Origin: Solwaraspora sp. WMMA2056
GTDB lineage: Bacteria; Actinomycetota; Actinomycetes; Mycobacteriales; Micromonosporaceae
Direction: 5' to 3'
DNA: 64,000 bases
Assembly (NCBI RefSeq): GCF_030345095.1
Contig: NZ_CP128360.1
Span: 5,580,001 to 5,644,000 of the forward strand
Part shown: positions 9,617 to 27,292 of the stretch, piece after piece
Layout: each line of letters opens with the position of its first letter
How positions within the stretch are numbered: position 1 is the first letter of the stretch
Notes under the pieces: model-generated
Seen by the model: only the letters and a program-made list of their open reading frames with translations
Told to the model about the DNA's origin: nothing
Databases searched by the model: none
Made by a program: the position numbers and the translations under genes

Positions 9617-9646
9617 CTGGCCCTCCGCGTCACCGGGTCGGGTCGA

Positions 9647-10108: not shown

Positions 10109-10648
10109 GACGCGGATGTTAGATGCCACGCGCCACCCGGCGGACAGCCCGACCAGCCTGCTCAGCCGCGTGCGACCAGCCGTACTCACCCGCGTGCGAC
10201 CAGCCGGAGCCAGCAGATCACTACGCCCCGGGCGCCGGCCGGACCGGACCGGTCGACCGAGTCACGGGGCAGGCCACCAACTCCTTCGTCCGCACACCCT
10301 GCGGTACGGATGTCCGAGGCCGATCAGTTGACCGATCTGGCCGCTCGATCGGTGGTCGGCGGCGGGTTCCGGGTCCCGCCCAGCCCTTGACGTCGAGGGT
10401 GCAGGCGGTTAACACTCTCGCAACCGCCGCGTGACAGCGACGAATCGGGCGAGGCCAGGACCGGCATCTCGGAGAGAGGCCGCCGGCAGCGCCGCCCGTC
10501 TGTCGCCCCTGACCGGACGGCCCAGCCCTGTGACCATTCGACGACCCGGTAGCACCGCACCCCGCAATGTTAACGCGAACATCCATCGAGCTCGGCGAGT
10601 TGGGACCGACGTCCACCGCCCGCCCGGACCGATCAGGAGGAACACCCG
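10109..10648. other. 540-bp intergenic region upstream of the GH43 gene
   Basis: No gene is seen. The left end holds a 16-bp direct repeat (CGCGTGCGACCAGCCG at 10167-10182 and 10191-10206), in the promoter area of the minus-strand gene. TTGACG at 10387 could be a -35 box. A 7-bp inverted repeat GGCGGTT...AACCGCC spans 10404-10428. The near-palindrome TGTTAACGCGAACA at 10568-10581 resembles a LacI-family operator. AGGAGG near 10636 is the GH43 ribosome binding site. Confidence 0.6.
10568..10581. promoter_or_regulatory. LacI-type operator candidate upstream of the GH43 gene
   Basis: TGTTAACGCGAACA is symmetric in its outer TGTT/AACA and central CG, the layout used by LacI-family regulators. 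It lies 68 bp before the start. No regulator sits next to it, and the assignment is inference. Confidence 0.35.
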
Positions 10649-13600
10649 ATGCCCCGACGTGCCCGACCGCCGGCCGTCAGACCGGCGCGAACAGCGCTGG
10701 CGTCCCTGGCCGCCCTCGCCCTCACCGCCGGCCTGCTGGCCGCCGGACCGACCGCCGCCACCGCTGCCGAGCTGACCGACGGTCTCGTGCTGTGGTACAA
10801 GCTGGACGCCGCAGCCGGTACGGTCGCCACCGACGCCTCCGGCAACGCCCGCCACGGCACCGTCCGCGGTGGCGCGGACTGGTCCGGCGACGACGGGCTC
10901 GGCTTCAACGGCACCGACACCTACGTACGGCTGCCCGACGACGTGCTGCGCGACCTGACCTCGGTGACCGTCGCGTTCGACGTGTACGTCGACCCGGCGC
11001 AGGCCACGCCGTACTTCATCTACGGGATCGGCAACACCAGCGGCGGCACCGGCGACGGCTACCTGTTCGCCACCGGCGACCAGTTGCGGACCGCGATCGC
11101 CAGCGGGAACTGGTCCACCGAGCAGAACACCCGGCCGACCCCCGCCCGTAACCTCGCCCGGGGCGTCTGGAAGCACCTCACCTACGCCCAGACCGGCACC
11201 ACCGGCGTGCTCTACGAGGACGGCGTCGAGATCGGCCGCAACACCGCGGTGACCATCACCCCCGCCTCGATCGGCGGCGGCACCACCACGGCCAACTACA
11301 TCGGACGATCCGTCTACACCGCCGACCGCTACCTCGACGGCCGGATCCGTGACTTCCGGATCTACGACCGGGCGGTCGACGCCGACGAGGCTGCCGCACT
11401 CGGTGCCCGCGCGGCCGCCGGGGTCGTCGCCCGGGACACCGCCGCGCTGGACCTCGGCGACACCAGCGCGGTCACCGGCGACCTGACCCTGCCGGCCGTC
11501 GGCGCCGCCGGTTCCACGATCACCTGGGCCAGCAGCGACCCCGACGTGGTCTCGACGACCGGGAAGGTGACCCGCCCGGCGCTGGGCCAGCCGGACGCCA
11601 CCGCCACCCTCACCGCCACCCTGGCCCGAGGGTCGGTCACCGACACGAAGACGTTCGAGGTGACCGTACTGGCGCAGTTCGACGACGCCCGGATCGTCGC
11701 CGCCGCCGCGGCCGCGCTGACCGTGCACGGCGTCGACGACGTACGCGGGAACCTGACCCTGCCCACGACGGGCGCCGACGGCACCACCGTGAACTGGGCG
11801 TCGGACGACCCGGCGGTGATCGCCACCGACGGGGTGGTCCACCGGCCGGCACCCGGCGACGCCACCGTCACCGTCACCCTGACCGCCACCGTCACCCGCA
11901 ACGCGGCCAGCGCCAGCCGCGAGTTCACCGCCACCGTGCCGGCGCTGCCGGCACCGGCCGACCGCACCGGCTACCTGTTCAGCTACTTCACCGGCGAAGG
12001 CACCGCCACCGGCGAGCAGGTCTACTTCGCGCTCAGCCAGGGCAACGACCCGCTGCACTGGCAGCAGCTCAACGACGGCCGGCCGGTGCTGACCTCGACG
12101 TTGGGCGAGCAGGGCCTGCGGGACCCGTTCATCATCCGCTCCCCGGAAGGTGACAAGTTCTACCAGATCGCCACCGACCTACGGATCCACGGCAACGGCA
12201 ACTGGGACGGCGCGCAGCGCCACGGCAGCAAGTCGATCATGGTCTGGGAGTCCACCGACCTGGTCAACTGGACCGACCAGCGCCTCGTGCAGGTATCCCC
12301 GGACACCGCCGGTAACACCTGGGCGCCGGAGACCTACTACGACCCGACGATCGGCGCGTACGTCGTCTTCTGGGCCTCGAAGCTCTACGCCGCCGACGAC
12401 CCGGACCACACCGGAAACACGTACAACAAGATGCTGTACGCCACCACCCGCGACTTCCACACGTTCTCCGAACCGCAGGTGTGGGTCGACCCCGGCTACT
12501 CGGTCATCGACTCGACCGTCATCGACCACGACGGTGTCTACTACCGGTTCACCAAGGACGAACGCAACAACTCGTCGTCCACGCCGTGCAGCAAGTTCAT
12601 CCTCGCCGAGACGTCGACGTCGCTGCGCAGTACCGACTGGGAGTTCCTGGCCGACTGCATCGGCCGGGGCGCGATGTCCCAGGGCGAGGGACCGACGATC
12701 TTCAAGTCGAACACCGAGGAGAAGTGGTACCTGTTCATCGACGAGTTCGGCGGGCGCGGCTACATCCCGTTCGAGACCACCGACCTCGCCTCCGGGGTGT
12801 GGACGCCGTCGAGTGACTACGCGCTGCCGACCAGCCCCCGGCACGGCACCGTCCTGCCGGTCACCCAGGCCGAGTACGACGCGCTGCTCGCCGCGTACGG
12901 ACCGGACCCCGGGCCGGAGCCGACCGACGGGCTGCTGCTGCACTACGAGTTCGACGAGACCGGCGGCAGCGTCGCCACCGACGCCTCCGGGCAGGGCCGG
13001 CACGGCACCTACCAGCGCACCCCCGCGTTCGGCACCGGCGTCGACGGTGGCTCGTTCAAGATGAGCGGCGGCGCCAGCAACTCCACCACCGCGCCGTACG
13101 TCACCATCCCCAACGGCGTGTTCGCCGGGGTCACCAGCACCACCGTGGCGACCTGGGTCAAGTGGGACGCCTCCAGCACCGCCAACCAGTGGATCTACGG
13201 GTTGGGGCCGGACCGCAACCGTTACCTGTTCAGCGGCCCGAACACCAACGGGGTGCTGTTCTCGGCGATCACCACCGGCAGCTGGCAGGCCGAGAAGCAA
13301 CTGCGGGCGTCGTCGGCGTTGACCGGCGGCGAGTGGAAACACGTCGCGGTGACCGTCGACTCGGCCACCCGTACCGCCGTGATGTATCTCGACGGCGTCG
13401 CGATCGCCCGGGCCACCGACGTGGCCGTGCGCCCGGCGGACCTGCACGACGCCACCGGCGGCAGTGCCGGCTACATCGGACGGTCGCTGTACGGCGAGGA
13501 TCCGTACTTCGCCGGTGAGGTCGACGACTTCCGGATCTACGGCCGGGCGTTGACCGCCGACGAGGTGTACGCCCTCGGCGGCGACCCGGCGGCGATCACC

Positions 13601-15457
13601 GGGGCGGCCCTGCCGCAGCTCAAGGTGGACGCGATCGTCGACGCCGAGCTCCATCGGGTGATCCTGCCGGTCCGCCCGGACACCGACCTGACCGCCCTGG
13701 CCCCGGAGTTCACCCTGGCCCCCGGCGCGAACGTCGCACCCGCGTCGGGCACCGTCCGGGACCTGAGCGCGCCGGTGACGTACACCGTCACCGGCGCCGA
13801 CGGTGCCACCGCGACCTGGACCGTCGAGGCCCGGCTGATGCGTTCCCCGGTCCTTCCCGGTCTGTACGCCGACCCGAACATCGCGGTCTTCGGCGACCGG
13901 TTCTACCTCTACGCCACCACCGACGGTTTCGCCGGCTGGAGCGGCACGAAGTTCTCGGTGTTCTCCTCGGCGGACCTGGTGAACTGGACCGACCACGGGG
14001 TCATCCTGGATCTGGAGACCGACGTCGACTGGGCGGACAACAGCGCCTGGGCGCCGACGATCGCCGAACGCGACGGCAAGTGGTACTTCTACTTCAGCGG
14101 TGGGAAGGCCACCGGGGACACCGGTAAGCACCTCGGGGTCGCCGTCGCCGACTCGCCGACCGGGCCGTTCCGCGACGCGCTCGGCGAGCCGCTGGTGCCG
14201 GCGGGCACGTACCCCGGTCAGATGATCGACCCGGCGGTCTTCACCGACGACGACGGCCGCTCCTACCTGTACTGGGGCAACGGCTACGCCTACCAGGTCG
14301 AGCTCAACGACGACATGGTGTCGTTCGACCCTGCGAAGGTCACCTCGCACCGGCCGGCCGGCTACAACGAGGGCGCGTTCGTCATCAAACGGGACGGCCG
14401 CTACTACTTCATGTGGTCGGAGAACGACACCCGCAGCGAGGACTACCAGGTGGCGTACGCCGTCGGTGACTCGCCGCTGGGGCCGTGGAGCGAGCGGCGC
14501 GGCACGATCCTGCGCAAGGACCTGTCGCTGGGGATCAAGGGCACCGGGCATCACTCGGTGGTGCGGGTGCCAGGCACCGACGACTGGTACATCGCGTACC
14601 ACCGGTTCGCCATCCCGGACGGCGACGGCACCCACCGGGAGACCACCATCGACCGGCTGGAGTTCGCCGCCGACGGCTCCATCGTGCCGGTGGTGCCGAC
14701 CCTGGAGAGCGTCACGCCGATCCGGCCGGTCAACACCGCCCCGGTGGTCACCGCCGCGACCGGGCCGGGCGGGCCGGTTCCGGCCGGCACACCCGTCGAG
14801 GTCACCGCGACCTTCACCGACTCCGGTGTCGACGACACCCACCGGTGTGTCCTGGTCTGGGGCGACGGTGCCACCGGCACCGGCACGGTCGACGGGTCGA
14901 CCTGTGTGGCCGGCCACACCTACACCGAGCCGGGCGTGTACCGGCCGACGGTCACGGTGATCGACGACCGGGGTGCCGCGCACACGCTGGCCGCCGGTTA
15001 CCTAACGGTGCACCGCGCCGACGGCGGGCACGTCGCCGGATCCGGCTGGTTCACCTCGCCGGCCGGGGCGTACGTCGCCGACGGGCAGCTGGCCGGACGG
15101 GCCGAGTTCGGCTTCGTCGCGGCGGCCGGGCCGGACGCGGCCGGGCCGGACGCGGTGGCGCTGCGGCTGCGGCTCGGGGACCGGGAGTTCACCGCCAGCC
15201 GCCACCGGGGGTACGTGGTCGACGGGCCGCAGGTGCGGTTCAACGGTCGGGGCACCATCAACGGTGCCGGTGACTACACGTACATGGTCGGGTTGAACGA
15301 CGAGGCGCTGCGGGAGCCCGCACCGGGCGACGGCGGCAGGGACCGGTTCTGGATCCGGATCACCGAGACGGCCACCGGGACGGTCGTCTACGACAGCCGG
15401 ACCAACGCCACCACCACCGCGCTCGGCGGTGGCGCGGTCGTCGTCACACTGGGTTGA
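10649..15457 (+). CDS. Secreted multimodular protein with two GH43 domains and two LamG domains
   Basis: The protein has 1602 residues: signal peptide (1-40, ending ATAA), LamG-like lectin fold (42-215), two atrophied bacterial Ig-like repeats (218-400), a first GH43-like five-bladed propeller (430-745), a second LamG (760-985), a linker domain, a second GH43 (1065-1350), a PKD-like domain (1360-1460) and a C-terminal beta domain. Putative GH43 base/acid pairs are D492 (GLRDPF) with E680 (QGEGPT), and D1075 (YADPNI) with E1241 (YNEGAF). GH43 enzymes are arabinofuranosidases, xylosidases or arabinanases, so a role in releasing arabinose or xylose from plant cell wall is likely. AGGAGG precedes the ATG. 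Two catalytic modules in one chain suggest complementary linkages, but specificity cannot be read. Confidence 0.88.
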   Translation: MPRRARPPAVRPARTALASLAALALTAGLLAAGPTAATAAELTDGLVLWYKLDAAAGTVATDASGNARHGTVRGGADWSGDDGLGFNGTDTYVRLPDDVLRDLTSVTVAFDVYVDPAQATPYFIYGIGNTSGGTGDGYLFATGDQLRTAIASGNWSTEQNTRPTPARNLARGVWKHLTYAQTGTTGVLYEDGVEIGRNTAVTITPASIGGGTTTANYIGRSVYTADRYLDGRIRDFRIYDRAVDADEAAALGARAAAGVVARDTAALDLGDTSAVTGDLTLPAVGAAGSTITWASSDPDVVSTTGKVTRPALGQPDATATLTATLARGSVTDTKTFEVTVLAQFDDARIVAAAAAALTVHGVDDVRGNLTLPTTGADGTTVNWASDDPAVIATDGVVHRPAPGDATVTVTLTATVTRNAASASREFTATVPALPAPADRTGYLFSYFTGEGTATGEQVYFALSQGNDPLHWQQLNDGRPVLTSTLGEQGLRDPFIIRSPEGDKFYQIATDLRIHGNGNWDGAQRHGSKSIMVWESTDLVNWTDQRLVQVSPDTAGNTWAPETYYDPTIGAYVVFWASKLYAADDPDHTGNTYNKMLYATTRDFHTFSEPQVWVDPGYSVIDSTVIDHDGVYYRFTKDERNNSSSTPCSKFILAETSTSLRSTDWEFLADCIGRGAMSQGEGPTIFKSNTEEKWYLFIDEFGGRGYIPFETTDLASGVWTPSSDYALPTSPRHGTVLPVTQAEYDALLAAYGPDPGPEPTDGLLLHYEFDETGGSVATDASGQGRHGTYQRTPAFGTGVDGGSFKMSGGASNSTTAPYVTIPNGVFAGVTSTTVATWVKWDASSTANQWIYGLGPDRNRYLFSGPNTNGVLFSAITTGSWQAEKQLRASSALTGGEWKHVAVTVDSATRTAVMYLDGVAIARATDVAVRPADLHDATGGSAGYIGRSLYGEDPYFAGEVDDFRIYGRALTADEVYALGGDPAAITGAALPQLKVDAIVDAELHRVILPVRPDTDLTALAPEFTLAPGANVAPASGTVRDLSAPVTYTVTGADGATATWTVEARLMRSPVLPGLYADPNIAVFGDRFYLYATTDGFAGWSGTKFSVFSSADLVNWTDHGVILDLETDVDWADNSAWAPTIAERDGKWYFYFSGGKATGDTGKHLGVAVADSPTGPFRDALGEPLVPAGTYPGQMIDPAVFTDDDGRSYLYWGNGYAYQVELNDDMVSFDPAKVTSHRPAGYNEGAFVIKRDGRYYFMWSENDTRSEDYQVAYAVGDSPLGPWSERRGTILRKDLSLGIKGTGHHSVVRVPGTDDWYIAYHRFAIPDGDGTHRETTIDRLEFAADGSIVPVVPTLESVTPIRPVNTAPVVTAATGPGGPVPAGTPVEVTATFTDSGVDDTHRCVLVWGDGATGTGTVDGSTCVAGHTYTEPGVYRPTVTVIDDRGAAHTLAAGYLTVHRADGGHVAGSGWFTSPAGAYVADGQLAGRAEFGFVAAAGPDAAGPDAVALRLRLGDREFTASRHRGYVVDGPQVRFNGRGTINGAGDYTYMVGLNDEALREPAPGDGGRDRFWIRITETATGTVVYDSRTNATTTALGGGAVVVTLG

Positions 15458-15967: not shown

Positions 15968-17740
15968 TCACCGTCGCAGGTGGTGCTTCACCCCGGCACC
16001 GTACGGTGTCGGCCGGCCGTCGTAGTCACGGATCAACGGCGGTACGCCCGGGTAGCCGTCGGTGTGCCAGACCGAGCCGAGGAAGCCGATCCGGCGCGTG
16101 TCGAGCCAGTCGATCGCCGTACCGACGAACCGGTGCCCGCCGGTGTCCTCACTCACCTCGACCGCGACCAGCGGCACCTCGGCGGCGACCGGCGCGACCT
16201 GCTGCTGCCAGCAGGTCACGGTGGCGCAGGCCGCGTCGTCGTCGACCCGCCAGGCGGCGGCGAGGTTGCGGCCGGCCGGGTCGTCCGGCCGGTACGCCAG
16301 CCAGCCGGACAGGTCGTTGCCGCCGTCGAGGCCGCCGATCAGCAGGGTGTTGTGGCTGCCGGCGAAGTGCCGGATGTTGTAGATCAGGGTGTCCGCTCCG
16401 AACTCCGGCCAGTCGGAGGGCAGGCCGGCCGACGGACGGCCGTCGCGCCACGCCTGCCACGCCGCGTCGGGCGGCAACTCGCCGACCGCCGGGTACGCGT
16501 CGCCGTACAGATCGAACAGGATGCTGTTGTCGTCGTCGAAGTGGGCGGCGACGTCCACCCAGAACGTCCGTTGCAACGAGGTCGCCGGGCCGTGCCAGGC
16601 CAGGACCGGGGTGATCCCGTGCCGGACGAGCCGCTGCGCGTACCCGCTGATCGCGTCCCGGTAGGCGGCACCCCGGAAGGCCGGCGGGACGGTGTCCCGG
16701 CTCAGCCAGCATTCGGGGTCGACCAGAACCCGTACGGCGTTGATCCGCCACCGCCGCATCGCTTGCACCGAGTCGTCGTCGACCGGGCCGTGGAAGATTC
16801 CCGAGCCGTCGCGGCAGAGTGTCTCGGCGCCGGCCCGGACCACGCCGCGCAGCTGGTACGGCCGGGGTGGCTGGTCGACGGTGACCAGTTGGTTGCCGGC
16901 CATGGTCAGCGCCGGGGCGTGACCGGGCGGCGCGGGGCTCACCACCCGGACGCCACGGACCTCGGCGGTGGCGTGGGTGCCGGCGTCGTCGTAGGCGGTC
17001 GCCGTGATCCGCGTCCCGTTGGTCGGCTGGGCACCGTGCCAGGTGAAGGCGTACGGGGCGGTGGTGTCGGTGTGCAGCAGGGTGCCGGCGGAGCGGAACT
17101 CGACCCGGGTGATCCGACGCCCGGCGGCTGCGGTGGCATCGGCCGCCACCGGGATCGGCGCGGTCGTGGCGAAGATCTGGTTCATCTGCGGGCTGCGCAG
17201 CGCGACGACCGGTGGGAACGATTCGGTCGGCGGGACACTCGGGCTGGGCGGAATGCTCGGGCTGGGCGGCAGGTCGGGGTCCATGTTGCAGGCCTGGCCG
17301 TTGAAGTGGTAGCTCGTCGGTGGCGGGTTGGCCACGGAATAGCTGCCACTGAACTGCACCCGCACCGACTCGCCGGTGTCCAGGTGGTACGCCCCGGCGT
17401 CGGAGCGCAGCTCGTACGGCCAGGCGAGCGCGCTCAGGACGAGACCTGGCGGCACCTGCCGGTAGGCGGAGTTGATGGTCTGTCGGGCACCCGGAGTGAA
17501 GGTGAGTCGCCAGGTGGAGACCGGCGGACCCAGATTGGTCAGTGTCATCCTGGCGATGAACCCGGTCGACCATTCCCTGGTCACCTGGTAGTCGACCGTG
17601 CAGGCGGGCGCGGCGTACGCCGGGCGCAGGGCGAACCCGAACACCATGCCAGTGGCTGCCAGGACGGCAGCGATCAATGAGGCGATGATTCGTCGCAATT
17701 GAATTACCCCCGTTGCATTGATGAGCGTATTTGCTTTCAT
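15968..17740 (-). CDS. Secreted CBM2 protein with degenerate GH5-like domain
   Basis: The protein has up to 590 residues: signal peptide (to about 44), CBM2 cellulose/xylan-binding module (CTVDYQV...NGQAC, about 45-150), a PSP-type linker, a bacterial Ig-like domain (175-265) and a GH5-like barrel (about 280-590). The usual acid/base motif YNEP is replaced by YGDA (G413, D414), and the substrate-side VRVPLNE is VRVLVDP. A Glu at the nucleophile position (E528, VEVSED) remains. Catalysis is therefore doubtful, and it may act as a binding protein. ATG 17740 has GGAGGG upstream. TTG 17698, after GGGGGT, gives a shorter, more standard signal peptide and is a serious alternative. Confidence 0.78.
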   Translation of the reverse strand: MKANTLINATGVIQLRRIIASLIAAVLAATGMVFGFALRPAYAAPACTVDYQVTREWSTGFIARMTLTNLGPPVSTWRLTFTPGARQTINSAYRQVPPGLVLSALAWPYELRSDAGAYHLDTGESVRVQFSGSYSVANPPPTSYHFNGQACNMDPDLPPSPSIPPSPSVPPTESFPPVVALRSPQMNQIFATTAPIPVAADATAAAGRRITRVEFRSAGTLLHTDTTAPYAFTWHGAQPTNGTRITATAYDDAGTHATAEVRGVRVVSPAPPGHAPALTMAGNQLVTVDQPPRPYQLRGVVRAGAETLCRDGSGIFHGPVDDDSVQAMRRWRINAVRVLVDPECWLSRDTVPPAFRGAAYRDAISGYAQRLVRHGITPVLAWHGPATSLQRTFWVDVAAHFDDDNSILFDLYGDAYPAVGELPPDAAWQAWRDGRPSAGLPSDWPEFGADTLIYNIRHFAGSHNTLLIGGLDGGNDLSGWLAYRPDDPAGRNLAAAWRVDDDAACATVTCWQQQVAPVAAEVPLVAVEVSEDTGGHRFVGTAIDWLDTRRIGFLGSVWHTDGYPGVPPLIRDYDGRPTPYGAGVKHHLRR

Positions 17741-17842: not shown

Positions 17843-17872
17843 ACGTACGTGACGTACTTGACGTACGTGACG
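17843..17872. promoter_or_regulatory. 9-bp tandem repeat, putative antitoxin operator
   Basis: ACGTACGTG, ACGTACTTG and ACGTACGTG run head to tail and are followed by ACG, 37 bp before the antitoxin start. Each unit is part of a larger palindrome around ACGT. Tandem operator half-sites directly upstream are typical for autoregulated toxin-antitoxin operons. Confidence 0.5.
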
Positions 17873-17908
17873 ACCGGGTGGGACGATCCTTGCGGGAAGG
17901 GGGCAGGC

Positions 17909-18325
17909 ATGTCCGCGGTGCACTTCGACAGCTACTCGCAGGCTCGAGCCCACCTCAAGGATCTGCTGGACGCAGCCGATCGGGGCCAGGTGGCGACCGT
18001 CAGGCGGGACAATCGGACGGCCGCTATCGTCGATCGGGAGCGGCTGCGTTTCTTCCTTGCCTCGGTGACCCCGTCCGGGGCCCAGGTGGTCGCTGAGTCC
18101 GGTGGATGGTCGATCTTCGTCCCTGGACTACCGGTCGCCGCCGACGGGGAGAGCCTCGACGAGGCGGTGGACGAGCTGATTCTCGCCCTGCGCGAGTACG
18201 CCGAGGATTGGCAGGACCGGCTCCTCGACGCGCCCAACCACTCGAGCAACTGGGGGCTGGTCCAGCTGATCACCATCAGCAGCGACGATCAGCTTCGCGA
18301 GTGGCTGGTCGGGTCGTCCCGGTGA
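17909..18325 (+). CDS. Antitoxin-like protein (Phd/YefM-type N-terminus)
   Basis: The protein has 138 residues. The N-terminus (HFDSYSQARAHLKDLLDAADRGQVATVRRDNRTAAIVD) matches the prevent-host-death fold that binds both DNA and toxin. The middle (GLPVAADGESLDEAVDELILALREYAEDW) resembles HicB-like antitoxins. The ATG at 17909 is preceded by GGAAGGGGG. Its stop overlaps the toxin-like gene's GTG start (GTGA), so the two are translationally coupled. The 9-bp tandem repeat upstream is a plausible autoregulatory operator. Confidence 0.8.
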   Translation: MSAVHFDSYSQARAHLKDLLDAADRGQVATVRRDNRTAAIVDRERLRFFLASVTPSGAQVVAESGGWSIFVPGLPVAADGESLDEAVDELILALREYAEDWQDRLLDAPNHSSNWGLVQLITISSDDQLREWLVGSSR

Positions 18326-18844: not shown

Positions 18845-19828
18845 ATGACACCGCGCGACCACGCGTTCTGGCTGCGCGCGCCCGGCGACGGCGAGATCAG
18901 ACCGGTCGAGGTCGGCCCGCCCGGCCCCGGTGAGGTACTGGTCCGCACCCTGTTCAGCGGGTTGAGCCGGGGCACCGAGACGCTGGTCTTCCGCGGTGAG
19001 GTGCCACCCAGCCAGTACGCGGTGATGCGCGCCCCGCACCAGGAGGGCGACTTTCCCGCCCCGGTCAAGTACGGCTACCTCAACGTCGGGCGGGTCGAGC
19101 AGGGCCCGGCCGCGCTCGTCGGGCGTACCGTCTTCTGTCTCTACCCGCACCAGACCCGCTACGTGGTGCCGGCCGACGCGGTCACCGTGGTGCCGGAGAC
19201 CGTGCCGGCCCGCCGCGCGGTGCTCGCCGGCACGGTGGAGACCGCAGTCAACGCGCTGTGGGACGCCGCTCCCCTGCTCGGCGACCGGATCGCCGTGGTC
19301 GGCGCCGGGATGGTCGGTGCCACGGTCGCCGCGCTCGCCGCCGGATTCCCCGGCGTCCGGGTCGAACTGGTCGACGTCGACCCTGACCGGGCGCGGGTCG
19401 CCGCCGCGCTCGGCGTCGGGTTCGCCCACCCGGACACCGCCACCGGCGACTGCGACCTGGTGCTGCACGCCAGCGCCACGGCTGCCGGGCTGGCCCGGTC
19501 GTTGGAGTTGCTCGCCGTCGAGGGCACGGTGGTCGACCTCAGCTGGTACGGCGACCGCCCGGTCACCGTACCGCTCGGCGAGCACTTCCACTCCCGCCGG
19601 TTGACCGTCCGCAGCAGCCAGGTCGGGCTGGTGTCGCCGGCCCGCCGCGACCGGCGCGGGTACGCCGGCCGGCTCGCCGTCGCCCTGGACCTGCTCGCCG
19701 ACGACCGGTTCGACGCCCTGCTGACCGGCGAGAGCGACTTCGCCGACCTGCCACGGGTGCTGCCCCGGCTCGCGGCCGGCGAGCTACCGGCGTCGTGCCA
19801 CGTGATCCGTTACCCGACTGGAGGATGA
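18845..19828 (+). CDS. MDR-superfamily oxidoreductase of a pterin-like cluster
   Basis: The 327-residue medium-chain dehydrogenase/reductase has a GroES-like N-terminal part (GPGEVLVRTLFSGLSRGTETLVF), then a Rossmann domain with GAGMVG and the acidic LVDVDPDR that prefers NAD(H). The usual catalytic-zinc Cys is replaced by Ser in LFSGLSRGTE, as in BchC-like members, so it may be zinc-independent at that site. It is the first gene of a same-strand run (pterin-synthase-like, glycosyltransferase, methyltransferase, YbhN). The next gene's Shine-Dalgarno overlaps its stop, so they are co-translated. Substrate is unknown; reduction or oxidation of a pteridine or sugar side chain is inferred from context. 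Confidence 0.82.
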   Translation: MTPRDHAFWLRAPGDGEIRPVEVGPPGPGEVLVRTLFSGLSRGTETLVFRGEVPPSQYAVMRAPHQEGDFPAPVKYGYLNVGRVEQGPAALVGRTVFCLYPHQTRYVVPADAVTVVPETVPARRAVLAGTVETAVNALWDAAPLLGDRIAVVGAGMVGATVAALAAGFPGVRVELVDVDPDRARVAAALGVGFAHPDTATGDCDLVLHASATAAGLARSLELLAVEGTVVDLSWYGDRPVTVPLGEHFHSRRLTVRSSQVGLVSPARRDRRGYAGRLAVALDLLADDRFDALLTGESDFADLPRVLPRLAAGELPASCHVIRYPTGG

Positions 19829-19831
19829 AAA

Positions 19832-20230
19832 ATGTTCAGCGTCACCGTCCGTGACCACATCATGGTCGCCCACAGTTTCACCGGTGACGTGTTCGGGCCG
19901 GCGCAACGACTGCACGGAGCGACCTTCGTCGTCGACGCGACGTTCAAGCGCACCGACCTCGACAGCGACAACATCGTCGTCGACATCGGCCTGGCCACCG
20001 AGCAGCTCAAGGCCGTACTGGCGGAGTTGAACTACCGCAACCTCGACGACGAGCCGGCATTCGCGGGGGTCAACACCTCCACCGAGTGGCTGGCCAAGCT
20101 GATCGCCGACCGACTGGCCGACCGGGTGCACGCCGGGGACCTCGGTGCCGGTGCCCACGGCCTGGCCGGGATCAGCGTCACGCTGCACGAGTCGCACGTC
20201 GCGTGGGCGAGCTACGAGCGGGCGCTCTGA
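19832..20230 (+). CDS. Divergent 6-pyruvoyl/6-carboxy-tetrahydropterin synthase homologue
   Basis: The 132-residue protein has the tunnelling T-fold of PTPS/QueD. Aligned by eye with QueD, the zinc His residues H14 and H28 are kept, as are the pterin-anchoring Glu (LHES) and NTSTEWLAK. However, the catalytic Cys is Ala (A24), the third zinc His of the HGH motif is Ala (HGA, A30), and the catalytic Asp-His pair is Asn-Tyr (N67, Y68). It therefore cannot work by the standard mechanism and must use another reaction or only bind the substrate. GGAGG overlaps the preceding stop, and the glycosyltransferase starts 5 bp after its own stop. Confidence 0.82.
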
Positions 20231-20235
20231 CCCGG

Positions 20236-21303
20236 ATGGTCGTCGTGGTCCTGCCCGCGAACGTGGACGATCCGGCGACGCCCAGCGGCGGCAACGTCTA
20301 CGACCGGCGGGTCTGCGCCGAACTGGTCGCCGCCGGCTGGCCGGTCCGCGAGGTGGCGCTGCCCGGTGCCTGGCCGCGCCCGGACGCGCCGGCCCGTGCC
20401 GCGCTCGGCGACACCCTCGCCGGGCTGCCGGACGCGACGGTGGTGCTGCTCGACGGGCTGGTCGCCTGCGGGGTGCCCGAGGTGGTCACGCCGCACGCCG
20501 ACCGGCTGCGGCTGGCGGTGCTGGTGCACCTGCCGCTGGCCGACGAGACCGGGCTGGACCCGGCCGATGCCGCCGACCTGGACCGGGCCGAACGCGCCGT
20601 GCTCGGCGCGGCGGCGGCGGTCATCGCCACCAGCGACTGGACCGCGCGGCAACTGGCCGATCGGCACGGGTTGCCCGCACACCGGGTCCGGGTGGCGGTG
20701 CCCGGCGTCGCCCGTGCTGAGCTGACCGCCGCGGATCCGGCCGGCCGCCGGCTGCTCTGCGTCGCGTCGGTCACCCCACGCAAGGGCCACGACGTGCTGG
20801 TCGACGCGCTGGCCACCGTCGCCGACCTGGACTGGAGCTGCCAGTGTGTGGGGGCGTTGGACGCCGCCGGGCACGTCGGGCGGGTCCGGGGCCGGATCGC
20901 CCACCACGGCCTCGACGACCGGGTCACGCTCACCGGCCCCCGCCACGGTGCGGCACTGATCGGCAGCTACGCCGACGCCGATCTGCTGATCCTCGCCTCG
21001 TACGCCGAGACGTACGGCATGGTGGTCACCGAGGCACTGGCCCGGGGCATCCCGGTGCTGGCCAGCGAGGTGGGTGGGGTGCCGCAGGCGCTCGGGCGCG
21101 GCGACGACGGAGTCCTGCCCGGGCTGCTGGTGCCACCGGGCGACCCGGCGACACTCGGCGCGGCGGTGCGTCGTTGGCTGACCGACGCCGACTGGCGGCA
21201 GCGGCTGCGGGCGGCGGCGGTGCAGCGGCGGGCGACGTTGCCCGACTGGGCGCGGACCGCCGCCGGGATCGGCGCGGTCCTGCACGACCTGCGACGGCGC
21301 TGA
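20236..21303 (+). CDS. Glycosyltransferase family 4 (GT-B)
   Basis: The protein has 355 residues in two Rossmann lobes: N-terminal PSGGNVYDRRVCAEL with its glycine loop, and C-terminal LLCVASVTPRKGHDVLVDAL and AETYGMVVTEALARGIPVLAS, the EX7E nucleotide-sugar motif of retaining GT4 enzymes. It probably transfers a sugar from a nucleotide sugar to the product of this cluster. The ATG at 20236 is 5 bp after the preceding stop. The 120 bp to the next gene contain CGGATCCGGC twice (about 21355 and 21370). Confidence 0.88.
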   Translation: MVVVVLPANVDDPATPSGGNVYDRRVCAELVAAGWPVREVALPGAWPRPDAPARAALGDTLAGLPDATVVLLDGLVACGVPEVVTPHADRLRLAVLVHLPLADETGLDPADAADLDRAERAVLGAAAAVIATSDWTARQLADRHGLPAHRVRVAVPGVARAELTAADPAGRRLLCVASVTPRKGHDVLVDALATVADLDWSCQCVGALDAAGHVGRVRGRIAHHGLDDRVTLTGPRHGAALIGSYADADLLILASYAETYGMVVTEALARGIPVLASEVGGVPQALGRGDDGVLPGLLVPPGDPATLGAAVRRWLTDADWRQRLRAAAVQRRATLPDWARTAAGIGAVLHDLRRR

Positions 21304-21423
21304 CGTCGGCCGCACCAGAGCAGGCACCAGAGCCGCACCACACACTCGGCGCGACGGATCCGGCACCGCACGGATCCGGCGCCACACCGGCACGGGGCCG
21401 CGTCAGCGGCGGAGGGAGCGCAC

Positions 21424-22251
21424 ATGGAGACGATCGAGTCGTCCGGGTACAGCCCGGCCTGGCTGGGGCTGCGGGAACCGGCGGACGCGCAGGCCCGGTC
21501 GACCGAACTGGTCGCCGAACTGGGCCGGTTGCTCGCCGGCGGCACCCGGACCGAGGTGCACGACCTCGGCTGCGGCACCGGATCGATGGGCCGGTGGCTG
21601 GCACCGCGCCTGGCCGGGCAGCAGCACTGGGTGCTGCACGACCGTGACCTCGAACTGCTGCGGTACGCGGAGGCCGCGATGGCCCCGGCCGCGGCCGACG
21701 GCGCACCGGTCACCGCGACGGTCCGCCGCGACGACGTCACGGCGCTCACCGCCGACGACCTCGCCGGTGCCGGGCTGGTCACCGCCTCCGCGTTGCTGGA
21801 CCTGCTCACCCGCGACGAGGTCGACACCCTGGCGGCAACCATCCTGGCGGTGGGCTGCCCGGCGCTGCTGACCCTGACGGTGGTCGGCGAGGTACGGATG
21901 CACCCGGCCGACCCGCTCGACGACGCGCTGTCCGCCGCGTTCAACGACCACCAACGGCGACACAGCGGCGGTCGGCCGCTGCTGGGCCCGGACGCCGTGG
22001 AGGCCGCCACCGAGGCGTTCACCCGACGCGGGGCGAGCGTGCTGGTACGGCCCAGTCCCTGGCGGCTCGGCCCCGAGCAGGCCGAGCTGACCACCCGCTG
22101 GCTGGACGGCTGGATCGCGGCGGCATACGAGCAGCAGCCGGAACTGGCCGGGCGGCCCGGCGGCTACCGGCAGCGCCGGCTCGCCGCCGCCGCAGCCGGC
22201 GAGCTGCAGGTCACCGTCGAGCACCGTGACCTGCTGGTGGTGCCGAGGTGA
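21424..22251 (+). CDS. Class I SAM-dependent methyltransferase
   Basis: The protein has 275 residues. Motif I is VHDLGCGTGSMGRWLA (about 40-56), followed by the acidic HDRDLELL that binds the SAM ribose. The middle (TASALLDLLTRDEVDTLA) and C-terminal part fit a small-molecule methyltransferase. GGAGGGAGC precedes the ATG. It sits between the glycosyltransferase and the YbhN-like protein and probably decorates the same compound. Target atom and substrate are not visible. Confidence 0.85.
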   Translation: METIESSGYSPAWLGLREPADAQARSTELVAELGRLLAGGTRTEVHDLGCGTGSMGRWLAPRLAGQQHWVLHDRDLELLRYAEAAMAPAAADGAPVTATVRRDDVTALTADDLAGAGLVTASALLDLLTRDEVDTLAATILAVGCPALLTLTVVGEVRMHPADPLDDALSAAFNDHQRRHSGGRPLLGPDAVEAATEAFTRRGASVLVRPSPWRLGPEQAELTTRWLDGWIAAAYEQQPELAGRPGGYRQRRLAAAAAGELQVTVEHRDLLVVPR

Positions 22252-22307
22252 ACCGCAGGGGTCGTCACCGCGTATCTGACAACGGAGGCTCACCAAGGAG
22301 GACAGGC

Positions 22308-22364
22308 ATGCACAGGGCGATCGGCCCGTGGCGTACGGTCGGCATCGGCCGTGGCGCGCCGTGA
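22308..22364 (+). CDS. Short upstream ORF (18 codons) coupled to the YbhN-like gene
   Basis: AAGGAGG lies 7 bp before the ATG at 22308, the best ribosome binding site nearby. The frame encodes only MHRAIGPWRTVGIGRGAP and ends with TGA whose last base is the first of the next gene's ATG (TGATG at 22362-22366). The layout fits a leader peptide that feeds ribosomes to the membrane-protein gene, which has no good site of its own. A sequencing frameshift joining the two is the alternative. Confidence 0.45.
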   Translation: MHRAIGPWRTVGIGRGAP

Positions 22365-23416
22365 TGGGCAGGATCTGGCCCTGGCTGCGGCTGGTCGGCG
22401 GCATCGCGATCCTGGCCGTACTGGTCTGGCGGCTCGGCACCGGGGCCTTCCTCGACGGGGTACGGGTGATCGAGGCCCAGACGCTGCTGCTCGCCGTCGG
22501 GATCGGCCTGCTCAGCACGGTCTGCAGCGCGGCCCGCTGGTGTCTGGTCGCCCGGGGCATGGGGCTGCGGCTGCCGGTGCGCACCGCCGTCGCCGACTAC
22601 TACCGGGCGATCTTCCTCAACGCGGCGCTGCCCGGTGGGGTGCTCGGTGACGTGCACCGGGCGGTCCGGCACGGCCGTACGGTCTCCGACGTCGGCGGCG
22701 GGGTCCGGGCGGTGGTGCTGGAACGCACCGCCGGTCAGATCGTGTTGTTCGCAGTCGCCGCAGGTGTCCTGCTGACCCTGCCGGTGCCGGTGCCGGCGGG
22801 TGTGGTCACCGGCGCACAGCTCACGGTGGCCGTGGTGGCGCTGGTCGCGGTGACGGTCGGCGTGGTCGCGGTGCTGCGGCGGCGGGTGACCGCGCGATCC
22901 GCACAGGCGGAGTCGTCCGTACCGGCGGGTCCGTCGAGGCCGGAGGGTCAGTCGAGGCCGGCGGGTCGGTCGACGCCGGCTGGCTGGTGGCGGCGGGCCC
23001 TGCGGCGTACCGCCACCGATCTACGCGGCGGGCTGCTGGCCCGACGGACCTGGCCGGGCGTGCTGCTGCTGTCCGTGGTGGCGCTCGCCGGTCACCTCGC
23101 CACCTTCCTGGTCGCCGCCCGAGCCGCCGGGGCGACCGCGCCGCTGCACCTGCTGCTGCCGTTGATGGTGCTGGCCTTTCTGGCGATGGCGGTGCCGCTC
23201 AACGTCGGCGGCTGGGGGCCACGCGAAGGGGCGACCGCGTGGGCGTTCGGCGCGGCCGGGCTCGGCGCGGAGCTGGGTCTGACGGTCGCCGTCGTCTACG
23301 GTCTGCTGGCGCTGACCGCGAGCCTGCCGGGGGCCGCCGTGCTGACCCTGCGTGGGCTGCGGAAGGTCCCGGTCGGACGGCTGCGGGTACGGCTGCGACC
23401 GCAGCCCGCGACGTGA
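22364..23416 (+). CDS. YbhN / lysylphosphatidylglycerol synthase TM-region family membrane protein
   Basis: The protein has 350 residues and about eight membrane helices. Family motifs include ARWCLVARGMGL, YYRAIFLNAALPGGVLGD and VLERTAGQIV, and near the end VPLNVGGWGPREGATAWAF. These proteins are flippase- or transport-like and usually accompany glycosyltransferases that make lipid- or sugar-linked products. A basic proline-rich loop (about 185-215) splits the two helix groups. The start was set at ATG 22364 within TGATG. GTG 22361 and GTG 22328 are in frame but lack better signals. Confidence 0.83.
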   Translation: MGRIWPWLRLVGGIAILAVLVWRLGTGAFLDGVRVIEAQTLLLAVGIGLLSTVCSAARWCLVARGMGLRLPVRTAVADYYRAIFLNAALPGGVLGDVHRAVRHGRTVSDVGGGVRAVVLERTAGQIVLFAVAAGVLLTLPVPVPAGVVTGAQLTVAVVALVAVTVGVVAVLRRRVTARSAQAESSVPAGPSRPEGQSRPAGRSTPAGWWRRALRRTATDLRGGLLARRTWPGVLLLSVVALAGHLATFLVAARAAGATAPLHLLLPLMVLAFLAMAVPLNVGGWGPREGATAWAFGAAGLGAELGLTVAVVYGLLALTASLPGAAVLTLRGLRKVPVGRLRVRLRPQPAT

Positions 23417-23454
23417 CGCGACCGGCGGCGGCAGTCGTGGCGGCGGCGCGCCGG

Positions 23455-24147
23455 CTACCGGTCGCCGAACCGGGGCGACATCGCGTAGCGCAGCAACGCC
23501 ACGTCGCCGATCTGCCGTACCTCGGCGAGGGTGGCCCGGGAGTCGGCGTGCCACGGGAACCGGCCGTCACCGACGAACCGGGGCGCCCGCGAGTCGCCGA
23601 CGAAGATCGGGGCGACCACCAGGTGCAGTTCGTCGACCAGCCCGGCGGTGAGGAACTGGGTGTGGATCCGGCCGCCGCCCTCGACCATCAGCCGCCCGAC
23701 GCCGCGCTCGTGCAGGTCGCCGACGACCCGGAGCAGGTCGACCGGGTCGCCGCAGTCGACGACCGTGGCGACGGCGGCCAGCCGTCGCCGGGCCCGGTCC
23801 AGGTGACCGGTCGCGCAGTAGACCAGCTTGTCCACGTCCCCGTGGGTGAAGAACCGCGACCCGGGGTCCAGGTCGCCGCGCCCGGTGACGGTGACCTTCA
23901 GCGGGCTGGGCCGCTGCCCCCGGGCCTGCCGCTGGCGGCGCCGGTCCGCCGAGCGGACCAGCAGCCGCGGATCGTCCTGCCGGATCGTGCCCGCCCCGAC
24001 CAGGATCGCGTCACAGTCGGCCCGGACCGCGTCGACCCGGTCGAAGTCGGCGTCGTTGGACAGCAGCAGCCGCTCGCCGGCGGCGTCGTCCAGGTACCCG
24101 TCGATCGACATGCCGCAGCTGAGCAGGACGTAGGGTCGCTCAACCAC
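23455..24147 (-). CDS. RibD C-terminal-like (pyrimidine/dihydrofolate) reductase
   Basis: The 230-residue protein is a single RibD_C/DHFR-like reductase domain without the deaminase half. Motifs are SIDGYLDD at the N-terminus, AILVGAGTIRQDDPRLLVR, and RLMVEGGGRIHTQFLTAGLVDELHL, the NADPH and substrate region of RibD and RIB7. It is divergent from the GTP cyclohydrolase II gene (136 bp apart), which suggests that it reduces the ribosylamino-pyrimidine made by that enzyme. GTG 24147 was chosen because GGAGGAG lies directly upstream. It is convergent with the YbhN gene. Confidence 0.85.
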   Translation of the reverse strand: MVERPYVLLSCGMSIDGYLDDAAGERLLLSNDADFDRVDAVRADCDAILVGAGTIRQDDPRLLVRSADRRRQRQARGQRPSPLKVTVTGRGDLDPGSRFFTHGDVDKLVYCATGHLDRARRRLAAVATVVDCGDPVDLLRVVGDLHERGVGRLMVEGGGRIHTQFLTAGLVDELHLVVAPIFVGDSRAPRFVGDGRFPWHADSRATLAEVRQIGDVALLRYAMSPRFGDR

Positions 24148-24283
24148 TGATGGCTCCTCCGCGTCGATCGACAGATAGCCTGCAGGTGAGGCCGGCACAC
24201 ATTCTTCCGTACCGCCCACGCGTCGACACCGGCCCTGCCGATGTCGACGTCGCCGCAGCCCCGTCACCGAAGAGGAAGTACCG

Positions 24284-24991
24284 ATGCTTGAACCGCCGCC
24301 CCACGCACCTGTCAACGGTAAGCTCGCCGCCGGTCCGACGGTCGCCGTACCGTCGCCCGCTGCGGTCCGTCGGCAGGTCACGGTGCCGCTGCGGTTCGCT
24401 GACGGCTACACCACCAAGGCCCGGGTGTTCACCTTCGACGGGTTGGCCGACCGACGCGAGCACGTCGCACTCGGGCTGGGCGACTGGCGTCAGGTGCTGG
24501 ACCGGGCCGCCGACGGTGGTGATCCACCCCTGGTACGCCCGCACAGCGAGTGCCTGACCGGTGACGCCTTCGGCAGTCAGCGGTGCGACTGCGGCCCCCA
24601 GCTGCGCGAGGCGGTGGAACGGATCGCCACCAGTGGTGGTTTCCTGCTCTACCTACGCCAGGAGGGACGCGGCATCGGGCTGTACGCCAAGCTGGACGCC
24701 TACGCGCTGCAGGACGCCGGGCTGGACACGTTCGAGGCCAACGTGGCGCTGGGCCGGGGCGAGGACGAGCGGGACTACACGGTCGCCGCGCAGATGCTGA
24801 TCGCGCTCGGCGTCCGACGGGTCGCGCTGCTGAGCAACAACCCCGACAAGGCGGCGCAACTCACCCAGCTCGGGGTCACCGTCAGCGAACAGATCCCGAC
24901 CGGTGTACACGTGTCGGCGGCGAACGTGCGGTACCTGGCGGCGAAGGCCAACCACGCGGCGCACACCATCGACCTGTCGGTGGCCGAGTGA
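24284..24991 (+). CDS. ribA: GTP cyclohydrolase II
   Basis: The 235-residue enzyme opens the guanine ring of GTP to give the 2,5-diamino-pyrimidinone of the flavin pathway. All landmark motifs are present: HSECLTGDAFGSQRCDCGPQL with the three zinc Cys, LRQEGRGIGLYAK, YALQDAGLDTFEAN and LSNNPDKAAQL. There is no DHBP synthase half. It lies with a reductase, a pterin-synthase homologue, a glycosyltransferase and a methyltransferase rather than with ribE/ribH, so it may feed a special pyrimidine or pteridine product instead of bulk riboflavin. That is inference. Confidence 0.92.
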   Translation: MLEPPPHAPVNGKLAAGPTVAVPSPAAVRRQVTVPLRFADGYTTKARVFTFDGLADRREHVALGLGDWRQVLDRAADGGDPPLVRPHSECLTGDAFGSQRCDCGPQLREAVERIATSGGFLLYLRQEGRGIGLYAKLDAYALQDAGLDTFEANVALGRGEDERDYTVAAQMLIALGVRRVALLSNNPDKAAQLTQLGVTVSEQIPTGVHVSAANVRYLAAKANHAAHTIDLSVAE

Positions 24992-25383: not shown

Positions 25384-26880
25384 TCAGCCGACCTGGCAGG
25401 GGGCACCGTTGAGTTGGAAGTCCGACGGACGCGGGTTGCTCGCGCTGTACGTCGCCTGGAAGCCGAAGCTCACCGTACCATTCGCCGGCAGGTTGCCGTT
25501 CCACGCGGCGTTGCGCGCCGTCACCCGCTGGCCGGACTGGCTGACCTGCGCGTTCCACCCGTTGGTGATCTGCTGGTTGCCGGGGAACGTCCAGGTCAGC
25601 GTCCAGCCGGTGACCGACGCGCCCCGGTTGGTGACGCGCACGTCGGCCGTGAAGCCGTTGCCCCACTGGTTGACCTGCCAGGACACGCTGCACCCACTGG
25701 CCGGCGGTGCGGTCGTGGGCGGTGCGGTGGTCGGCGGAGCCGTCGTGGGCGGAGCCGTCGTCGGCGGCGCGGTGGTGGGTGGGGCGTCGGCGGGCGGGAA
25801 CCGCAGGATCCGGTCGTCGGTGGCCGCTGGCGTCCCCCGGCCGTCGCGGTTGCTGGTCGTCACCCAGAGCCAGCCGTCCGGACCGTACTCGACGGTGCGC
25901 AGCCGACCGTAGGCACCGACCAGCTCCGGGGTCGGGGTGCCGACCCCGCCGGCGGCGTCGAGCGGTACGTTCCACAGCCGGTTGCCGCGCAGTGCGGCCA
26001 CGTACAGCCGGTTCCCGGCGATCGCGGCGCCGCTGGGCGACGCCTCGGCCGGGGTCCAGACCAGCAACGGGTCCCGGAACCGGGGATCGTTGGCCCGGCC
26101 CTCGACGGTCGGCCAGCCGTAGTTGCCGCCCGCGACGATCAGGTTCACCTCGTCCCAGGTGTTCTGTCCGAACTCGGTGGCGTACAGCCGACCCTGCGCG
26201 TCCCACGCTAGTCCCTGCACGTGGCGGTGCCCCAGGCTGTAGACCAGCGAGCCCGGCGTCGGATTGTCCGCCGGGACCGTACCGTCGGGGCGCATCCGCA
26301 GGATCTTGCCGTTGCGGCTCTGCGGGTTCTGCGCGGAGGCCGTCTGACCGGCGTCGCCCACCCCGGCGTAGAGCATTCCGTCCGGGCCGAACGCGATGCG
26401 GCCGCCGTTGTGGATGGTCGCCCGGGCGAGCCCGGTCAGGATCGGCTGCTGGTTCTGCGGGGCGCTGAGCCGGAACCGGGCGATCCGGTTGTCGGTGGCC
26501 GTGGTGAAGTAGACGTAGACGTAGTCGTCCTGCGCGAAGGTCGGCGAGACGGCGAGACCGAGCAGTCCGCCCTCACTGACCGGCGTGATGCCGGAGATCG
26601 TCACGACCGGCTGCGGCTGCGCGCCGGGCCTGACCCGGACCACCTGGCCGGTGCCGCGTTGGGCGACCAACGCACTGCCGTCCGGCAGGAAGTCCATCCC
26701 CCAGGGCACCGTCAGGCCGGTCGCGACCACCTCGGGCCGGGAGAAGTCGAAGTCGCCGAGGGCGAGCAGGCCGGTGGCGCGGTCGGCGGCGGGCACGGTG
26801 GCGGCCGTCGCCACTGCGGCGAGCCCGGTCGCCGCCAGCGCTGCGGCCAGGACGGCACCGACCACGGATCTGAGTTTCAT
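25384..26880 (-). CDS. Secreted PQQ-dependent sugar dehydrogenase with C-terminal CBM2
   Basis: The protein has 498 residues: signal peptide (1-28), a six-bladed glucose/sorbosone dehydrogenase propeller (about 45-365), five TTAPP linker repeats, and a CBM2 (about 395-498, CSVSWQV...NGAPC). Family signs are VPWGMDFLPDG, GLLGLAVSP, IHNGGRIAFGPDGMLYAGVGD with the catalytic His, and SLGHRHVQGLAW in the PQQ pocket. It oxidises a sugar at the polymer surface. The CBM2 and the LPMO gene 1.2 kb away suggest it may reduce that LPMO, like fungal AA12 enzymes. AGAGGTG precedes ATG 26880. Confidence 0.88.
   Translation of the reverse strand: MKLRSVVGAVLAAALAATGLAAVATAATVPAADRATGLLALGDFDFSRPEVVATGLTVPWGMDFLPDGSALVAQRGTGQVVRVRPGAQPQPVVTISGITPVSEGGLLGLAVSPTFAQDDYVYVYFTTATDNRIARFRLSAPQNQQPILTGLARATIHNGGRIAFGPDGMLYAGVGDAGQTASAQNPQSRNGKILRMRPDGTVPADNPTPGSLVYSLGHRHVQGLAWDAQGRLYATEFGQNTWDEVNLIVAGGNYGWPTVEGRANDPRFRDPLLVWTPAEASPSGAAIAGNRLYVAALRGNRLWNVPLDAAGGVGTPTPELVGAYGRLRTVEYGPDGWLWVTTSNRDGRGTPAATDDRILRFPPADAPPTTAPPTTAPPTTAPPTTAPPTTAPPASGCSVSWQVNQWGNGFTADVRVTNRGASVTGWTLTWTFPGNQQITNGWNAQVSQSGQRVTARNAAWNGNLPANGTVSFGFQATYSASNPRPSDFQLNGAPCQVG
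25703..25790. repeat. Tandem 15-bp repeat encoding the TTAPP linker
   Basis: About five copies of a 15-bp unit encode Thr-Thr-Ala-Pro-Pro between the dehydrogenase and CBM2 modules. It is coding, flexible-linker DNA. Confidence 0.7.
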
Positions 26881-27292
26881 GGGCACACCTCTCAGATCGA
26901 GCGATCTTCATCAATGTAGCAACGCTCGATGACTGACGCCTCACTCAGCCACGCGTACGCCGTCGACGGGCAAACGAGTCTACTATCGACGGCTCGCATC
27001 AGGTTCGTCAGATGTCGACAATCATCGATGTTGCGGGGTGGGCCGAGGCATGCTGAAATGGCTCATATCGCCGCAGCGCGGGGGCAACCGCGTTGAGCGA
27101 CGGCAGGCTCGGGAGCAGCCCAGGGCTCGGTGGCGATCCAGTGGCGCGGACGCGCACTCACCGACGTGGCGCGAGACGGCAGCACTCCCGAAGCGCTGCA
27201 CGGCTGTACCGCGCACCTCGACGGCCCGGCGCCACGACACCGACGCAGTTCATCACCGCACCACGACCGGCTACCAGGGTGAGGAGCAACCG
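26881..27292. other. 412-bp divergent intergenic region
   Basis: No gene is supported. It separates the PQQ dehydrogenase (minus) from the small membrane-anchored protein (plus). On the dehydrogenase side ACATTGATGAAG (minus strand, near 26912) is promoter-like. AATCATCGATGTTG (ATCGATG at 27024-27030) is another copy of the motif shared by several secreted-enzyme promoters. Confidence 0.5.

Follow-up and report, generated by a model that had tools for sequence, protein, structure and literature searches.

The window analyzed here, a stretch of 64,000 nucleotides (G+C 71.6%) from the 7.01-Mb, single-contig genome of the actinomycete Solwaraspora sp. WMMA2056 (NZ_CP128360.1, positions 5,580,001 to 5,644,000), contains seven genes between positions 18,845 and 24,991. 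Five of them are aligned in tandem on the forward strand, and a RibD_C reductase gene and a GTP cyclohydrolase II (GCHII) gene follow as a divergent pair; open reading frames (ORFs) and Pfam matches agree with the order and strands given in a preliminary description of this DNA. We found that the gene set is conserved as a block, and we moderately favor the reading that it encodes a dedicated non-riboflavin pathway, which would lead from GTP through a ribitylaminopyrimidine to a pteridine-like compound with glycosylation, optional methylation and end steps at the membrane. The seven genes are as follows.

18845-19828 (+): medium-chain dehydrogenase-like protein (MDR), distantly BchC-like (Pfam below cut-off; predicted fold)
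19832-20230 (+): PTPS-IV, a T-fold protein of the SCO6650 type (PF01242; FGPAQ; degenerate PTPS active site; 3d7j match)
20236-21303 (+): GT4 family glycosyltransferase (PF13692)
21424-22251 (+): class I S-adenosylmethionine (SAM)-dependent methyltransferase (PF13649)
22328-23416 (+): YbhN / LPG_synthase_TM flippase-like membrane protein (PF03706)
about 23455-24198 (-): RibD_C reductase, archaeal ArfC-like (PF01872; TIGR01508 below cut-off)
24284-24991, or from 24383 (+): Tyr-type GCHII (PF00925; Tyr; zinc Cys motif)

Candidate ORFs were judged by codon log-odds; the MDR gene probably starts at 18845, and the refined start of the GT4 gene is the ATG at 20236. Pfam cut-offs were exceeded by the PTPS-like protein (82.0 bits), the glycosyltransferase (88.7), the methyltransferase (29.3), the membrane protein (109.7), GCHII (GTP_cyclohydro2, 185.1) and the reductase (145.4 bits, cut-off 24.1). 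The MDR scored below the cut-offs of ADH_zinc_N (20.4 vs 31.8 bits) and TIGR01202 (52.5 vs 291.25 bits), and in a fold search its predicted structure was that of a medium-chain dehydrogenase; its alignment has a mean column identity of 80% over 27 rows. Fold searches with the methyltransferase and MDR models returned general folds only and indicated no substrate. The reductase did not reach the cut-off of the ArfC model TIGR01508 (139.3 vs 186.45 bits), which was nonetheless its best NCBIfam match. In GCHII, the PF00925 domain is accompanied by the zinc Cys motif and by a Tyr that aligns with Tyr105 of the E. coli enzyme.

Conservation was examined in the genomic stretch around each PTPS gene in two sets of loci. 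The first set comprises the best 80 of at least 420 PTPS relatives from one PTPS scan, together with the window (81 loci); among the relatives listed, the nearest are mostly from Micromonospora. The second set comprises 60 loci from profile matches, which were picked to spread over genera with their neighborhoods unseen at the time of choice; some of these stretches stop at a contig edge. The two sets originate in separate genome collections, but some species may occur in both, and their independence is therefore not strict. In the first set, the PTPS gene was accompanied by MDR in 80/80 loci, GT4 in 78/80, methyltransferase in 80/80, YbhN in 77/80, GCHII in 69/80 and the window-type reductase in 29/80. 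The corresponding counts in the second set were 59, 59, 44, 55, 47 and 43 of 60, with a creatininase-family gene in 8 and a CDP-alcohol phosphotransferase gene in 46. In 79 of the 81 first-set loci, window included, the MDR gene is the immediate upstream neighbor of PTPS, at most 300 bases away. With the window left out, both sets together gave MDR in 139/140, GT4 in 137/140, YbhN in 132/140 and GCHII in 116/140 loci, bearing out the earlier proposal that these genes belong together. The gene set is a conserved block, and its linkage is far beyond chance. The methyltransferase is indeed in the cluster, as had been described, and was found in 80/80 first-set loci, but it looks optional: 16 of the 60 second-set loci gave no match to it at E 1e-12, and in several of the 12 such loci that were checked, GT4 and YbhN directly adjoin each other. 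At E 1e-20, the PTPS profile was positive in 9 of 296 genomes of the phylum, 37 of 246 of the class and 80 of 121 of the family.

Several loci depart from the common layout. In two Amycolatopsis loci (L018 and L023, about 8250-11130), only CDP-alcohol phosphotransferase, MDR, PTPS and methyltransferase genes were found, GT4, YbhN and GCHII being absent from the stretch. A locus of genome G008 (L155) has a diverged PTPS-IV, MDR and two GT4-like genes, the other partners being absent from the stretch; perhaps it represents a different or ancestral pathway. Genome G302 has two PTPS-IV loci (L156 and L157) on separate contigs. An inositol-monophosphatase-family gene lies at 14666-15466 of L042, where it was identified by Pfam, and relatives occur near the cluster in L031, L061, L072, L084 and L089.

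The PTPS-like protein matched a single PDB entry in a single-sequence search, namely SCO6650 of Streptomyces coelicolor (3d7j; E 1.3e-68, whole length). This close relationship also shows that the preliminary description was right in mentioning similar gene sets in Streptomyces. The FGPAQ signature occupies residues 21-25 of the window protein and occurs in 79/81 first-set and 57/60 second-set loci. On the strength of this signature, the protein is by sequence a PTPS-IV protein as that term is used in the passages of PMC5445326 on the subfamily. When aligned with other PTPS chains, it has both the HGH zinc motif and the catalytic Asp-His pair replaced. The zinc motif reads HGA in 81/81 first-set and 59/60 second-set loci. 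The catalytic pair in the first set is Asn-Tyr in 68 loci, Thr-Tyr in 10, Ser-Tyr in 2, Asp-Tyr in 1 and Asp-His in 0 of 81; in the second set it is Asn-Tyr in 28, another pair in 30 and unread in 2, with Asp-His in 0 of 58 readable loci. Ala30, Tyr68 and Glu120 are invariant across the 81 loci. Neither the QueD model TIGR03367 (35.6 vs 89.25 bits) nor the 6PTHBS model TIGR00039 (22.7 vs 125.5 bits) reached its cut-off. With the Asp-His pair and one of the zinc ligands replaced, PTPS-IV is unlikely to perform PTPS/QueD chemistry, and judged by sequence the earlier view of the protein as a PTPS/QueD homologue does not hold for a working enzyme. For SCO6650 itself, the structure paper reportedly found neither zinc nor a catalytic triad, and PTPS activity was absent.

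The residue of GCHII that aligns with E. coli Tyr105, hereafter the switch position, distinguishes two types of cluster. Among the 70 first-set GCHIIs (window included), it is Tyr in 19, Met in 44 and His in 7. A creatininase-family gene was nearby in 0/19 Tyr loci and in 51/51 Met/His loci, while a reductase gene was found in 19/19 and 8/51, respectively. The 11 first-set loci (of 81) with no GCHII in the stretch comprise 7 with neither gene, 3 with the reductase only and 1 with the creatininase only. This pattern, found in the first set, was then tested on the 60 loci of the second set. There, 39 Tyr loci had 0 creatininase and 38 reductase genes, and 8 Met/His/Leu loci had 8 and 1, respectively; of the 13 loci with no GCHII in the stretch, 4 had the reductase and 0 the creatininase. 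Over the combined 117 loci with GCHII, the 58 Tyr loci had 0 creatininase and 57 reductase genes, and the 59 non-Tyr loci had 59 and 9. Twelve additional loci from a single genus (g8), kept outside these totals, have Met together with the creatininase in 12/12 and with the reductase in 1/12. Two of the creatininase-family proteins were scanned with PF02633 and scored 211.3 and 205.5 bits, and all four metal-ligand motifs are present in 47 of 52 such neighbors. The pairing of switch residue and neighbor suggests that the two cluster types are two routes to one diaminopyrimidine, although no more than two co-changes are supported by the tree described below. In work of 2006 by Spoonamore, SCO6655 is reported to have Met120, to make FAPy, and to gain APy formation with Tyr at this position.

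The reductase is tied to GCHII by gene fusion: in two Pseudonocardia loci (L036 and L088), GCHII and RibD_C are in a single chain, with PF00925 at 11-170 and PF01872 at 226-430 in L036. It is therefore likely that the product of one of these enzymes is the substrate of the other, and the fusion lends support to the earlier suggestion that GCHII and the reductase would together give a ribitylaminopyrimidine. A strong reductase match was found in all 20 creatininase-type genomes searched; the best match was elsewhere in the genome for 18 of them (193.9 to 229.1 bits) and inside the cluster for the other two (257.9 and 242.0 bits), so that a reductase from elsewhere in the genome might possibly serve the creatininase-type clusters. 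Three PTPS-IV-negative genomes had reductase matches of 145.2, 149.1 and 194.7 bits. As to the window genome, it has eight RibD_C matches in total, including a second reductase gene in the window at 61853-62677 (+; 112.7 bits).

A CDP-alcohol phosphotransferase homologue is present, in variable gene order, in 78/81 first-set and 46/60 second-set loci. It was absent from the window locus and from six loci of the same genus (L208-L213) in the stretches examined, and in the window genome a single homologue, with the Pfam domain and the catalytic motif, lies 1.5 Mb from the cluster. This motif, D..DG..AR...G...D...D, is common to a 16-row transferase alignment and the unlinked copy. Among 121 genomes of the family, 77 have both the transferase and PTPS-IV, 3 have PTPS-IV only, 8 have the transferase only and 33 have neither; two of the three with PTPS-IV only are 69% and 77% complete. 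The transferase thus occurs in 77/80 PTPS-IV genomes vs 8/41 others (Fisher p 1e-18, relatedness ignored). The two genes are within 10 kb of each other in 64 of the 77 genomes, and the remaining 13 include all 7 of the window's genus. The CDP-alcohol phosphotransferase belongs to the set and was relocated yet kept in the window's genus. The surroundings of the relocated gene, viewed by eye as ORFs only, contained nothing that points to the pathway proposed here.

Besides the cluster copy, the window genome has one other GCHII gene, which is inside a complete RibD-RibE-RibBA-RibH operon (L216). In this operon, RibD (336.1 bits), riboflavin synthase (222.6), RibBA (713.2) and lumazine synthase (119.9) each exceed the equivalog cut-off. 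The possibility that the cluster GCHII is the sole copy in the genome is thereby ruled out, and because this operon is complete, bulk riboflavin supply by the cluster is unlikely. A Pfam scan of the cluster detected no RibB, RibE or RibH among its genes, so the earlier remark that no bulk riboflavin genes are nearby holds for the cluster. According to PMC2853524, SCO6655 of S. coelicolor, annotated as GTP cyclohydrolase II, is negatively correlated (r -0.61) with the riboflavin flux that was predicted, and most genes of the table that holds it were up in the stationary phase.

From the genes, we infer the following reactions for the window organism, their order beyond the reductase, and the nature of the product. 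GCHII would convert GTP to a diaminopyrimidine ribosyl phosphate (APy-P), from which the RibD_C reductase would make 2,5-diamino-6-ribitylamino-pyrimidinone phosphate. In the sister type, GCHII with no switch Tyr probably halts at the formylated FAPy-P, which the creatininase-family neighbor would deformylate; this division into opening and deformylation would be analogous to that of the unrelated archaeal GCHIII and ArfB. The cluster encodes no deaminase, and the product is therefore expected to retain the 2-amino group. PTPS-IV, a T-fold protein, may bind the reductase product or a derived pterin and, together with the MDR, may build or reshape a second ring or a side chain by a reaction other than that of PTPS/QueD. 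GT4 would attach a sugar; in clusters that have it, the methyltransferase would add a methyl group. The CDP-alcohol phosphotransferase, unlinked in the window's genus, and YbhN would act at the membrane, where the product may be joined to a lipid or polyol phosphate, moved across, or both. A more specific version, which we regard as improbable, is a lipid-anchored pteridine: the transferase would couple CDP-diacylglycerol with the phosphorylated ribityl chain of a pyrimidine or pterin derived from GTP, GT4 would add a sugar, and YbhN would flip the resulting glyco-pterolipid. Such a chain is a phosphorylated polyol, as are the acceptors used by PgsA and PIP synthase. Were this true, the compound would be made on differentiation in Streptomyces, given that SCO6652 rises in the second mycelium relative to the first (log2 0.8, 4.3 and 4.1 at 24, 48 and 72 h; data given in PMC3610822). 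Judged by gene order in the Streptomyces loci, SCO6652 is expected to encode the methyltransferase.

That the set forms a unit is well supported by the gene content, linkage, residue patterns, fusion and co-occurrence that were observed directly, and the first step is supported by pattern; the later steps and the product are inferred. Several results weigh against the proposed pathway. Its reactions are predictions from the genes, and it has no known metabolite. On a four-gene tree of 116 rows (L176, with no MDR, left out), switch residue and creatininase change twice each, in the same direction in two pairs on well-supported branches, and with two co-changes the sign test cannot reach significance. 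The second co-change falls within Pseudonocardia: L036 and L088 have Tyr and no creatininase and are nested in a creatininase clade. Seven co-changes had been counted on a tree of MDR only; this number was rejected, as only one pair was supported there and the four-gene tree gives two. In addition, GCHII is missing from the examined stretch in 24 of the 141 loci. Three creatininase neighbors scored 29.4 to 36.4 bits with the ArfB model (cut-off 180), and the cut-offs of the creatininase and MftE models were not reached either. Two creatininase-family genes are present, unlinked, in the window genome; a cluster that lacks such a gene thus need not belong to a genome that lacks it. The PTPS-IV-negative genome with 194.7 bits (G246) equals the lower reductase scores of the creatininase-type genomes; therefore, an unlinked reductase need not belong to the pathway. 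Lastly, eight genomes, five of them from one genus, have the CDP-alcohol phosphotransferase but no PTPS-IV.

The loci with no GCHII in the stretch (11/81 and 13/60), as well as the order and strand of GCHII and the reductase, which differ between loci, would also fit two modules that are neighbors by chance, namely a membrane glycoconjugate module (MDR, PTPS-IV, GT4, methyltransferase, YbhN and CDP-alcohol phosphotransferase) and a spare flavin branch (GCHII with reductase or creatininase). We consider this unlikely, given that GCHII is retained in 117 of the 141 loci despite the rearrangements and that PTPS relatives are known pterin binders. Alternatively, the set might feed cofactor F420 or flavins by supplying extra ribitylaminopyrimidine to FO synthase. 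A passage in a review carries an unpublished remark that assigns PTPS-IV a part in archaeal F420 synthesis, and FO synthase (CofH model over cut-off) occurs in 77/80 PTPS-IV genomes of the family vs 20/41 others (97/121 in total); one of the three PTPS-IV genomes with no match over cut-off has a partial match and another is 69% complete. However, the 20 FO synthase-positive, PTPS-IV-negative genomes of the family demonstrate that FO synthase occurs without this set, none of the 19 genomes sampled from other families of the order has PTPS-IV, which would count only if such relatives make F420, and the skew may reflect clade inheritance. Moreover, we know of no role in F420 synthesis for GT4, the methyltransferase, YbhN or the CDP-alcohol phosphotransferase, and this explanation seems quite improbable to us.

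The PTPS Pfam domain, being over its cut-off, would also fit a conventional pterin pathway of the tetrahydrobiopterin, queuosine or folate type in which a standard PTPS/QueD takes part; the QueD and 6PTHBS scores far under their cut-offs, HGA in place of HGH and the lack of an Asp-His pair in the readable loci of both sets make such a pathway very improbable indeed. We thus retain the dedicated pathway as the preferred reading. It would unite two orphan results, SCO6650 as a PTPS homologue and SCO6655 as an odd GCHII, and would offer the adjoining deformylase as the reason for GCHIIs of the SCO6655 type. It also offers a first step that can be tested and extends the list of parts, relocated gene included, for a metabolite whose genes occur across many Streptomyces, Micromonosporaceae and related actinobacteria, many of them from soil.

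The other genes around the cluster are of different kinds. A multidomain GH43 glycoside hydrolase of 1602 residues with aBig_2, Laminin_G_3 and PKD domains is encoded at 10649-15457 (+). CBM2-domain proteins, one with a glucose/sorbosone dehydrogenase domain, flank the cluster at 15968-17740 (-) and 25384-26886 (-), and the gene at 17867-18325 (+) has a weak PHD_like antitoxin-type match (25.3 bits vs a cut-off of 27).

SCO6650, SCO6655 and the PTPS-IV/GCHII/RibD_C neighborhood are already in print. A full-text literature search, which covered few subscription papers, found no description of the whole set, nor of the switch-deformylase coupling, the fusion or the relocated phosphotransferase; with this coverage, the negative carries little weight.

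Among known systems, toxoflavin-type pathways likewise make a secondary product with recruited GCHII and RibD-like enzymes; to our knowledge, they have no PTPS fold, no GT4 and no membrane enzymes. Streptomyces loci such as L022 have the order PTPS-GT4-methyltransferase-YbhN-creatininase-GCHII, with which the numbering SCO6650-SCO6655 of S. coelicolor appears to match. Compared with a cluster of this type, the window has a Tyr in its GCHII, no creatininase neighbor and a linked reductase. The PTPS-IV subfamily of COG0720 described in the AGeNNT paper (PMC5445326) has the FGPAQ signature and the PF00925 and PF01872 neighbors in common with the window. In the section on this subfamily, PF00925 is read as FolE/FolE2, no pathway is proposed, and the creatininase, CDP-alcohol phosphotransferase, MDR, GT4, methyltransferase and YbhN are not named. 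A biochemical parallel to the sister clusters is in riboflavin synthesis of Sinorhizobium meliloti and Brucella, where, as reported in PMC9478397, the creatininase-family protein BrbF is a proven FAPy-P deformylase; its partner cyclohydrolase had, in the authors' words, yet to be identified, and the word Streptomyces does not appear in the main text. Like the archaeal GCHIII-ArfB route and bacterial BrbF, the sister clusters as proposed here would split GTP opening from deformylation; their creatininase-family neighbor is likened to BrbF by family, BrbF itself being outside the comparison (PMC9478397). They differ from both systems in that the opener is a GCHII homologue and the set is not a riboflavin pathway.

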